Part shown: in pieces, positions 50,628 through 54,673 of the stretch
Layout: each line of letters starts with the position of its first letter
Numbering within the stretch: the first letter of the stretch is position 1
From: Sulfurovaceae bacterium
GTDB lineage: Bacteria; Campylobacterota; Campylobacteria; Campylobacterales; Sulfurovaceae
Assembly: GCA_028715055.1 (NCBI GenBank)
Contig: JAQTLE010000003.1
Span: 124,001-188,000 of the forward strand
Reading direction: 5' to 3'
DNA: 64,000 nt
Made by a program: the position numbers and the translations under genes
The notes under the pieces: generated by a model
Databases searched by the model: none
The model's input: the letters and a program-made list of their open reading frames with translations, nothing else
Told to the model about the DNA's origin: nothing

Positions 50628-50843
50628 TTATTTTTTGTGTCTATCGGTTGTACTGTTATGTTGAGATTTTTCTTTTAAGTTGCAAAGATCTTGGTATGCC
50701 CGTTTGAGTATTTTGTTTTCTGACATGAGAGAGATGATTTTTTGCTCTTTTTCGCTTTGAATGATCGTTTCGTCATATTGTAGCGCCTTGATCTGAGCAT
50801 CTATAGCAGCCAGTGCAGTCTCAAGATGGCTTAGAGAAACCAT
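50628..50843 (-). CDS. Small coiled-coil hypothetical protein
   Basis: A 71-residue protein with heptad-like helices (LETALAAIDAQIKALQ...SEKEQKIISLMSENKILKRAYQDL) and a polar tail. AAGGAATTGC precedes the ATG. It lies upstream of the CHAD gene on the same strand. No family recognised. Confidence 0.5.
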   Translation of the reverse strand: MVSLSHLETALAAIDAQIKALQYDETIIQSEKEQKIISLMSENKILKRAYQDLCNLKEKSQHNSTTDRHKK

Positions 50844-50940
50844 GCAATTCCTTTTTTTTAATTATATCTCTGTTTTTCAAAAAAAATGAAATTAATCAAA
50901 TAGATTAGGTCTTAGAAATAGATAAATATGTTTTTTGGCA

Positions 50941-50963
50941 CAATAAAGTAGCCTGTCCCTATT
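50941..50963. repeat. Left inverted repeat flanking the nuclease-helicase gene
   Basis: CAATAAAGTAGCCTGTCCC followed by TATT; about 19 of 21 aligned positions match the reverse complement of 53098-53119. It begins 13 bp beyond the stop codon of the gene. Confidence 0.55.
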
Positions 50964-50975
50964 ATTCGATTATTC

Positions 50976-52949
50976 CTATTTATCTAGCTCTTCAATTCCA
51001 ATATACTTCAAATATTGATATGTACCATCATAATATTTTTGATTACGTGTGTGATCTATTCCATCACCATCAGGAATATAGATCACCATACCCTGTCGCG
51101 CTCTTGTAAGTAGTACTCTATACGAATTTTTTAAATAATTTTTATCTGTTTCACTATTAATATTTTGGAATTTTGTCCCTTTAAAAGATTGATAATTCCA
51201 TTTATTGTCATCAAAATAAAAATTTTCACCCCAAACCATACATGCCCAATCAATTTCTAATCCTTGTATGTCAAATTCTGTTGCAACATCTTCAAGAAAA
51301 TATGAAGATCTAACATCATCTTTATCATTCAGAAACCAATATTCTACTGTTATTTCATTTTTGACATCAATCCCATAAGGTCTTAGCCTTCGAGCTCCAG
51401 AAGAAGCAACAAGACCATATCGCTCCGATCCTCTTGATTGTTCCATAATCCATTGTTTTGCACGATCAAAATCTCTGGTAATAAAAAGCGGGTAATCATT
51501 TTTGATTTCAAAATATAGTTTTTTTGCATCATCAATATCCAACTCCAATAAAGCATGTATAAAATCAGACAATTTCTCTGATCTAAATGAACGTACCGAA
51601 ACAGACAAGTGCAAATCGTTTTTTTCAATTCCATTGTCATGAAGCCATGTTTTAATATTATCATTCGATATATAGTTTGTATTTTCGGTAATCAAAGATG
51701 AATAATAAATTTCCCAGTCACTAAAATGATTTTTAAAAGCTTCTATCCACTCTTGCAATCCTGCCTCGCCTGTATTGATTTCTTGACCTCCGCCAATTAA
51801 ACAAATGACTGTACACCAATCTTGATGTCTATTCATAACGTCAATCAAAAACTCTGGCTCAGACATATCAAAATCATCTTTACCTTTTTTTCTTTTCATA
51901 AATGAACTTGCCTGTTCTTTTGTCCAAGCCCTTTGTGCCTCGTCAAACACAACGACTTTTTCAACAGGAGCTTTTTCAGACATTAAATTGTCATCCCTAA
52001 AGTGGTGGATATTTTGAATAAATGCACACGCTTTAATCGACGCTTCTTTTTTTGTTAATGGCTCATTTTTTTGTTTTGACATCAATACTTCATCTCTAAT
52101 TAATGCTTCTCTTAACACACTCACCAATGGTCCATTTCCAGAAAGGAAAACAGCATGTTCGTCTTCATCGGTTTTCATTCTTTCATTAGCTATATTTAAT
52201 CCTGCAAGTGTTTTACCAGCACCAGGGACACCCGTTACAAAACAAATAAATTTTTTATTGCTAAGCTTTGAAGATTCAATAATTTCATTAATACAGTCTG
52301 TTGTTTTACTGAGGTTGATTGTTCCAGAGTCTGAACGAGAAATTTCCTGTACATTATGCCCTCGATAAAGTGCTTGAGCTGCTTCAATGATAGTAGGTGT
52401 TGGTTTATAAATGCTTGATGCCCAATTATTTGGTTCAATAATTCCATTAGAAGAAGAATCTAAACATAAAGAAATAATTTCGTTCAAATTACTTTCATTT
52501 GCAAACAATGGAGCAAATAAATTATCTTGATAACACACTAATTTATTTTCTTTAGCAGGTGCACGTGTTGATATTAATATCGGTATTAATTTCGCTCTAT
52601 GACTACCTTCATGAAAATTTTTAAGATCTAACGCATAATCCATAACTTGCTCAATTGCATATTTTGAATAACTATTATCACCTACTTTAAATTCAAGCAC
52701 AAAAATTAAATCATTAATAATTAAAACGTTATCAACTCTTTTCCCCATTCTTGGGATTGAAAACTCAAAAAATACATGCCCATTTTCAAAGGTTTTTAAT
52801 TGATCTTGCAAGATTATAATTTGTTTGAGCCATGCATTTTTTTGTAGTTCTTCGAGGGCATGGGAATGTTTTTGTGTTAATTGACCTAAAATTGTATTAC
52901 TGTCATTTTGTATAAAATCACTTATAGTATTTGAATAATAGGCTCTCAT
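50976..52949 (-). CDS. PD-(D/E)XK nuclease-like plus SF1 helicase (DUF2075-type) protein
   Basis: A 657-residue protein. Residues about 55-180 have the order of a PD-(D/E)XK nuclease: Asp73 in KRVDNVLIIND and Glu86-x-Lys88 in VLEFKVG. From about residue 230 a superfamily 1 ATPase follows: Walker A GVPGAGKT, Walker B VVVFDEAQRAW, the glutamine motif ICLIGGGQEINTGEAG, and motif VI NSYRVLLTRARQGMVIY. The combination is found in DUF2075 proteins, several of which occur in defence islands. It is solitary, bracketed by inverted repeats, and near a tRNA-Ser gene. Anti-phage or DNA-processing activity is inference. Confidence 0.8.
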   Translation of the reverse strand: MRAYYSNTISDFIQNDSNTILGQLTQKHSHALEELQKNAWLKQIIILQDQLKTFENGHVFFEFSIPRMGKRVDNVLIINDLIFVLEFKVGDNSYSKYAIEQVMDYALDLKNFHEGSHRAKLIPILISTRAPAKENKLVCYQDNLFAPLFANESNLNEIISLCLDSSSNGIIEPNNWASSIYKPTPTIIEAAQALYRGHNVQEISRSDSGTINLSKTTDCINEIIESSKLSNKKFICFVTGVPGAGKTLAGLNIANERMKTDEDEHAVFLSGNGPLVSVLREALIRDEVLMSKQKNEPLTKKEASIKACAFIQNIHHFRDDNLMSEKAPVEKVVVFDEAQRAWTKEQASSFMKRKKGKDDFDMSEPEFLIDVMNRHQDWCTVICLIGGGQEINTGEAGLQEWIEAFKNHFSDWEIYYSSLITENTNYISNDNIKTWLHDNGIEKNDLHLSVSVRSFRSEKLSDFIHALLELDIDDAKKLYFEIKNDYPLFITRDFDRAKQWIMEQSRGSERYGLVASSGARRLRPYGIDVKNEITVEYWFLNDKDDVRSSYFLEDVATEFDIQGLEIDWACMVWGENFYFDDNKWNYQSFKGTKFQNINSETDKNYLKNSYRVLLTRARQGMVIYIPDGDGIDHTRNQKYYDGTYQYLKYIGIEELDK

Positions 52950-53097
52950 ATTGATTATTTATGCTCGTTTTGAATTCTACGTAGATTTATCATAAATTTC
53001 CTTCTATTAGTTGGAATATTGTATCGAATTTTTATAAGTTAATAAATGATTTGGTGATAAAAATCGTGTGATTGTATTATATAAAATATAAAGAATA

Positions 53098-53119
53098 AAT
53101 CGGGATAGGCTACTTTTTG
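53098..53119. repeat. Right inverted repeat flanking the nuclease-helicase gene
   Basis: AATCGGGATAGGCTACTTTTTG, the imperfect complement of 50941-50963, 149 bp upstream of the gene start. The remaining gap 52950-53284 is AT-rich and I see no gene in it. Confidence 0.55.
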
Positions 53120-53284
53120 GTAGACTTCTTTGATTAGAAATATTGTATAAAAATTTTGTTAGCGAATGATATGATTATAAAAATGTAATTGTATTTATAG
53201 TGGTGTAGGTAAAAATAGGCACAATTTGGGCACAGTAGCCATTTTTGATTTAACAGTTGCCTTGTACAGGGGCTAGTTAGGTAG

Positions 53285-53370
53285 TGGCGGACAGAGGGGG
53301 ATTCGAACCCCCGGTACTTTCGTACGGCCGCGTTCCAGGCGACTAGATTAAACCACTCTCCCATCTGTCC
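53285..53370 (-). tRNA. tRNA-Ser (GGA)
   Basis: 86 nt on the minus strand: acceptor GGACAGA/TCTGTCC, anticodon loop CTGGAAC, long variable arm with GTACGAAAGTAC, T-loop GGTTCGAATCC, CCA encoded. No duplicated 3' end is seen beyond the nearby nuclease-helicase gene. Confidence 0.95.
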
Positions 53371-53497: not shown

Positions 53498-53600
53498 CCT
53501 CTTTCTAGACCTGTGCAATGACACTAAGGGAAACCGAGTCAGGATGGGAACATAGCAGCTCATCTCTTTTTGTTGTGTGCCGCAGGTATCTGGGGAGAGG
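53498..53600 (+). ncRNA. ffs: Signal recognition particle 4.5S RNA
   Basis: The apical hairpin GTCAGG-ATG-GGAA-CAT-AGCAGC has the GGAA tetraloop and the two conserved internal-loop strands that bind Ffh. The 3' strand GTGTGCCGCAGGTATCTGG resembles E. coli 4.5S RNA. The closing helix pairs CCTCT, TTCT, AGA and CCTG at the 5' end with CAGG, TCT, GGGG and AGAGG at the 3' end, allowing G-U pairs and a two-base bulge. The ends are taken from this pairing. A separate hairpin (AGGCGTT...AACGCCT, 53466-53500) in the 5' flank overlaps the first bases and competes with this helix. Confidence 0.85.
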
Positions 53601-53602
53601 TA

Positions 53603-54673
53603 CTAAACCTCACTATCTTCTGTTATACTCCACTCATAAAACGGCATTGCCTCAAAACTAATATTTTCTATACTAAATTCATATTGATTGGCAACCGTTA
53701 TCATCATGACCTTTTTTATCCCGTTTCGTTTATATATCGAAAATTTTTTTTGGCTTTTTGCCCACATGCCTTCTTCACTATCAAACGGTGCGGGGATGAT
53801 AAGCGTAAGATCTGCCGTGACATATCCATGGATGCCAAGTGTTTCAAATCTTTCTTTGTGTTTTATGAGCGTCATAGCGATCGCAGAATCAAACTGCATC
53901 ATAAATGTATGTTTGAATGTCATATATTTTGCTACCGCAGTATCATATATAATGAGCTTTTTGCCGCCCTTTTTGGATATATCATCTACAAAGTATATGA
54001 GTCCTTCATCTTGGAAAGATTTCAGGGTCAAATAGAGCCAATCTTTTGAGATCTTAAATTTCTCTTTAGCAAATGTATATATCTGGTTTACGCTTAGATG
54101 TTCGGTATGATGTTCTGCAAGTATCGAGAGAAGTTTGAATTCTTGTATATCAAATCTGCTTTGCATAAATTGCTTGAGTATGTTTTGATGGGATTTGTAA
54201 GCTTTTGTCATTATAGGCAATGTACCGGATTTGAGAAAATGGGTAAATGCATTGGTTTGTACGATTTGATTCTCAGAAGCCAAAAATTCTTCATAATCCA
54301 ACGGCAATAGTTCAATGTTGTCAAAATCATCGATACTGCATGGTTCTCTTGATATTATAATAGTTTGATCGACTCTTGGCAATTTAAGATCGTGTTTATA
54401 AAAATGATCCACGATAAGCAGTTTGATACTATTTTGGATTATGTACTGTTGCAATTCCAATAAGGGGTTGAAAAGGAGATTTGGATCATCCATATCGATA
54501 TAGAGTACGCTTTTTTTTTCAAATTGACTTATAAAATCAAACACTAAAGCTGTCTTGCCCGTACCTCTAGCACCGCATAAGTTGATATTTCCTGTCATAG
54601 GCAGTATGCATTTACGCGGTATAAAATAATCATTTGTGGGTGTATTGTTTTGTAAATATTCTAATAATTCCAT
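53603..54673 (-). CDS. AAA-type ATPase (archaeal-like/DUF4143-type P-loop protein)
   Basis: A 356-residue protein. Walker A is [17 protein letters not shown] and Walker B-like residues are in [10 protein letters not shown]; a winged-helix-like region ([35 protein letters not shown]) and a C-terminal domain follow. It resembles the AAA_14/DUF4143 group of ATPases, whose function is mostly unknown. Its 3' end lies 3 bp from the SRP RNA on the opposite strand. Not connected by strand to the ribosomal operon. Confidence 0.7.

Follow-up and report, generated by a model that had tools for sequence, protein, structure and literature searches.

A nuclease is joined with an SF1 or SF2 motor in Nhi, AbpAB and Hachiman, and the residues D, ExK and QxxxY form the pattern of RecB-like PD-(D/E)XK nucleases. 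PADLOC lists a nuclease-helicase of this kind as PDC-S41, a candidate single-gene defence family that as a defence system is itself a prediction. RAYT and the term "passenger gene" occur together in surveys of Bacillus genomes. Transposases whose terminal repeats follow the consensus GGGGWSAS are called TIRYTs, and these repeats form dimers and clusters (PMC3733652, PMC6006769). Di Nocera and colleagues suggested that alternative repeat dimers come from different processing of circular repeat-carrying intermediates (PMC3733652). Here we describe a single PDC-S41 gene enclosed by worn repeats that resemble the TIRYT type. The protein and repeat families have both been described already; what is new is a single-gene unit bounded by repeats, with an echo in a related genus.

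The window, by which we mean the whole stretch of 64,000 nucleotides that was analysed, carries the gene at 50976..52949 on the minus strand. It encodes a protein of 657 amino acids which, by its homologues and profile matches, is a PDC-S41 / SLFN-g3 (DUF2075) nuclease-helicase. In a profile search the PADLOC model PDC-S41 matched residues 1-656 of 657 (E 5.4e-298), and the Pfam SLFN-g3 helicase family (PF09848, formerly DUF2075) matched residues 235-627 (E 7.9e-84) with 282.4 bits, above the curated cut-off of 24. This SF1-type helicase domain (51069..52247, minus strand) contains GAGKT at residues 243-247 and DEAQ at 336-339. The N-terminal part is without a significant Pfam match. There we found D73, E86xK88 and Q101xxxY105 (residues 73-105; 52635..52733, minus strand), with the aspartate and glutamate at the positions given in an earlier note on this DNA. 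D73, E86, K88, Q101 and Y105 are invariant in five homologues of 65-87% identity, and the motif residues are also kept in a homologue of 28% identity. This suggests that the N-terminal part is a RecB-like PD-(D/E)XK nuclease. The earlier note is supported in that one gene combines a PD-(D/E)XK motif with an SF1 helicase domain. The domain layout by itself is not novel because PADLOC already lists it: the window protein matches the family over its full length with the same order of nuclease motif and helicase domain, and nothing notable differs in the protein. The repeat frame belongs to the window unit and not to the family.

Like Nhi, AbpAB and Hachiman, the window protein joins a nuclease with an SF1 motor; it gave no match to the PADLOC Nhi model at 1e-3, and only a distant homologue matched that model weakly. 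NCBIfam has no model for the window protein, and among solved structures none was close (best E 0.29). A literature search for "DUF2075" returned nothing on phage defence, judged by title, and neither a single-protein nor an alignment scan of viral contigs found a relative of the protein. The gene product is probably an antiviral enzyme with DNA-cutting and DNA-unwinding activities. Directly upstream of the gene lies a short leader ORF (INLRRIQNEHK, window 52950-53000), preceded by a leader and promoter-like region at 53001..53083 on the minus strand (TATATAATACAATCACA). Both are conserved in a second genome of the genus (G005), where the stop codon of the leader ORF and the gene's start codon overlap.

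The gene is far from universal among relatives. Three of 59 near-relative genomes match it, one marginally and its own genome included, and at class level copies of about 61% identity or more were found in 6 of 397 genomes, again including its own, with one copy broken. Farther away, plasmids of Persicobacter carry a copy of 66% identity and records from Exiguobacterium and Niallia contain relatives of 28%. The earlier note had placed similar DUF2075 proteins in defence islands, and the neighbours of the homologues agree with this. The Exiguobacterium homologue adjoins McrBC. The homologue in G388 (L193:2995-5100) has an AbiJ-like neighbour and is followed by an attC-like sequence, recognised by eye, which suggests an integron cassette inside a defence cluster. 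In G260 a Fic gene lies two genes away, with what reads as an integrase-like gene between them. The distribution of the gene is patchy, horizontal and defence-associated. Next to the window gene itself no known defence gene was recognised and no attC-like site was noticed by eye. An anti-phage role of the window protein would follow from its family and from the neighbourhood of its homologues.

The gene is enclosed, as the earlier note had claimed, by imperfect inverted repeats. The left arm (50940..50963, plus strand; ACAATAAAGTAGCCTGTCCCTATT; AAAGTAGCCTGTCCC) has its CCC end toward the gene, and the right arm lies at 53098..53121 on the minus strand (AATCGGGATAGGCTACTTTTTGGT; GGGATAGGCTACTTT, opposite strand AAAGTAGCCTATCCC). 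Each arm is 24 nt long; they are complementary at 20 of 24 positions (83%), lie 2134 nt apart and rank first of all inverted pairs found in the surrounding 4.3 kb. A tRNA-Ser(GGA) gene (53285..53370, minus strand) is also present as described, its 3' end facing the unit. Between the arms there is neither a transposase, as the note had said, nor an integrase gene, and Pfam Y1_Tnp has no match in the whole 1.76-Mb genome. Between the right arm and the tRNA we found a degraded second copy of the leader (53125..53199, minus strand), whose alignment score of 36.5 exceeds the highest value, 31.5, obtained from 500 shuffles. A 71-aa ORF (50628..50843, minus strand) separates the left arm from the CHAD gene; it is lineage-specific at that spot, and its relatives sit elsewhere in G005 and G006.

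From the window alone the repeats cannot be called meaningful, since the 12-mer core of the repeat was matched twice with up to 2 mismatches when shuffling predicts 1.2, and the whole genome holds just two good core copies, the arms, plus two chance-like ones. It is the related genomes that make the match significant, because the motif recurs there and because degraded arms flank an 87% identical homologue elsewhere. Among 59 genomes a 13-mer of the repeat gave 16 matches, compared with 2 for a reversed control pattern, and 14 of the 16 share one A-rich/T-rich setting, A preceding the motif and mostly T following it. We also considered whether the right arm is half of a degraded hairpin dimer. 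The 38-mer chosen there folds with z -4.2, a longer stretch gives z -0.9, and 16% of nearby 38-mers fold just as well, so this idea was dropped; neither the left arm nor the G005 arms showed a hairpin.

In a scan of public genomes the 15-mer turned up in many phyla. By our own arithmetic about 480 matches are expected by chance in 257 Gb on both strands; since single matches may be chance, they were set aside and only dimers and pairs framing transposases were used. Fifty neighbouring 15-mer pairs are short divergent dimers with the consensus AAGGGGACAGGCTACTTTTT-loop-AAAAAGTAGCCTGTCCCCTT, and the model dimer folds into a perfect 20-bp hairpin. Genes for Y1 or REP-associated transposases are framed by the repeat in L081, L170, L248, L251, L254 and L255. 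The arms thus belong to a repeat family (AAGGGGACAGGCTACTTTTT) that in other genomes is associated with HUH/tyrosine (Y1) transposases of the RAYT/TIRYT type. The repeat core GGGACAGG resembles the TIRYT consensus (PMC3733652, PMC6006769, PMC2817692): the left arm AGGGACAG fits GGGGWSAS at 7 of 8 positions, the right arm CGGGATAG at 6 of 8 and the family consensus GGGGACAG in full. A literature search for the 12-mer found nothing. In G236 the 15-mer occurs 37 times (contigs C3, C7, C9, C15, C17 and C23), and most of these copies form divergent dimers with a spacing of 27-30 bp.

The orientation of the arms sets the window unit apart from the TIRYT and RAYT elements. Around the transposases the GGG ends are outermost, whereas at the window gene and its counterpart in G005 they are innermost; moreover the unit contains no transposase, and its genome has the repeat in only two degraded copies. 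With this orientation the unit is no transposon of the repeat family carrying exchanged cargo; it resembles the stretch between two repeats. Processing of circular intermediates, if it occurs as proposed for repeat dimers, would allow such inter-repeat segments. In the sampled family no close cognate transposase was found, the best reaching about 45% identity. The 260-aa Y1 transposases present in genomes of the genus and family (L045-L064) are flanked by a repeat of another kind, GGGGTCAGGT, with GGGG outermost, and are therefore no obvious partner.

Of the gene with its arms only two copies are known. The second, in G005 of the same genus, is 87% identical and lies on a different contig from the CHAD homologue of that genome, downstream of a tRNA-Ser(GCT) gene and not of GGA, separated from it by a Fic gene. 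The BLAST match between G005 and the window that spans the gene covers only 50973-53083; on either side, DNA similarity ends no more than about 20 bp from the arm. Just outside this match G005 has an arm in degraded form at each end, AGTAGTCTGTTCC and, read from the other strand, AGTAGTCTGCACC. When the G005 flanks were shuffled an arm-like match arose on the left in 0.065% and on the right in 0.245% of cases, and both together never in 20,000 trials. Both arms read GTAGTCT in G005 and GTAGCCT in the window; the arms appear to have changed together, a weak indication that concerns a single position. In two species of the genus, gene and arms are thus present at places that are not orthologous to each other, and they appear to have travelled together. 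More distant homologues are without such arms.

We also compared gene-free loci in other species of the genus. In G006 the tRNA-Ser(GGA) region matches the window as far as about 53216, and the similarity resumes from about 50624 into CHAD, the gene being absent; G007 has another small gene at the same tRNA-Ser(GGA) spot. Species without the gene, as sought by the earlier note, are thus present. No target-site duplication was found at the window or at the gene-free loci compared, and the piece missing from G006 extends beyond the two arms, taking in the 71-aa ORF and the degraded second leader copy. In both respects the unit differs from a classical transposon or MITE.

We consider these observations best explained by a one-gene defence-type unit bounded by worn repeats of the RAYT/TIRYT family, for which movement in trans and an anti-phage function are both proposed; we give this reading a probability of about 0.5. 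Most likely, the gene and its repeats were moved as a unit in trans by a Y1 transposase and are now a relic. The transposase, since lost here or present only in the donor, would have cut at both repeats, after which the segment would have inserted near tRNA genes. The protein may move along DNA by its SF1 motor while the RecB-like nuclease cuts, which, going by family and neighbourhood, would protect the cell from phage. The earlier note's one-gene cassette moved in trans is partly supported by the repeats at the gene boundaries, the gene-free species, the second location and the transposase-linked repeat family. Breaks in similarity between species at repeat edges in a related genus, described below, also speak for our reading. 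What weakens it is that there is no Y1 gene here and no close cognate, that the arms face inward, that just two copies with arms are known, that no target duplication was found, that distant homologues are armless and that the G006 gap exceeds the unit.

Recombination with breakpoints at the repeats is the main rival. Here the repeats would be scars or bystanders of ordinary horizontal transfer, with no transposase acting on the pair. The inward-facing arms speak for this, as does the concentration of repeats at variable spots in a related genus described below, and homologues occur in other contexts (beside an attC-like site, on plasmids, with an integrase-like gene nearby). We nevertheless hold this account, though a serious one, to be somewhat doubtful, since at each of the two sites both arms go with the gene and mark the end of similarity.

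The position of both copies 3' of a tRNA-Ser gene, and the other small gene beside tRNA-Ser(GGA) in G007, would also be expected if a site-specific integrase had inserted the unit into tRNA-Ser 3' ends and the repeats were incidental. However, apart from a second tRNA-Ser gene the window has no duplicated tRNA end, the arms enclose no integrase as a tRNA-targeted integrative element would, the isoacceptors differ (GGA and GCT), and in G005 the Fic gene separates the unit from the tRNA; this makes such insertion quite improbable. That the arm pair is a chance match seems scarcely credible. It would suit the near-expected count in the window alone, but not the way in which the motif recurs in relatives within one and the same sequence setting, 16 times against 2 for the reversed control, nor the arms kept beside the sister copy. 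The repeat is present in other genomes, near and far, where the earlier note had proposed to look for it, and the gene is not conserved in relatives, so that neither of the outcomes set by that note as refuting has occurred.

Returning to a unit moved in trans, if the repeats do move the gene, then RAYT-type transposases, commonly regarded as producing short non-coding repeats, would also carry small defence and toxin-antitoxin genes. This would give a simple account of one-gene defence units found without a transposase, and the repeat would serve as a sequence handle for finding more of them. A bolder idea, which we regard as rather unlikely, is that RAYT/TIRYT repeats in these bacteria are recombination sites for single-gene units, so that defence, toxin-antitoxin and other genes of unknown function are swapped between REPIN-like hairpins in integron-like arrays by an HUH single-strand transposase, the window gene being a stranded unit. 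Integron cassettes are likewise single genes exchanged at recombination repeats; the repeat of the window unit is a different one and the enzyme presumably differs too.

In a related genus, the contents of a spot next to a conserved chemoreceptor-like gene vary: small genes found there differ between species, with the same REPIN-like hairpins between them (L249, L250, L252, L253, L259, L260 and L261, from G282, G269, G223, G297, G409, G245 and G054, respectively). These clusters were picked for having several repeats and illustrate the pattern, not its frequency. The genes at this spot encode DUF4238, DUF6602, SEC-C, HepT/nucleotidyltransferase and DUF4160 proteins, and the DUF6602 gene also matches nuclease models. 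Similarity between species often begins or ends at the hairpin edges. The repeat-bounded single-gene unit, together with this echo, is worth a systematic count.

Two further features lie near the unit in the window. A small bacterial SRP RNA is found beside the tRNA-Ser gene (53502-53599, plus strand), and an AAA_14-type ATPase gene (53603-54673, minus strand) weakly matches the PADLOC candidate PDC-S01. In the related genus, the HepT/nucleotidyltransferase pair of G297 (L253:1993-2975) splits one hairpin element, about 31 bp of whose middle is present on both sides.
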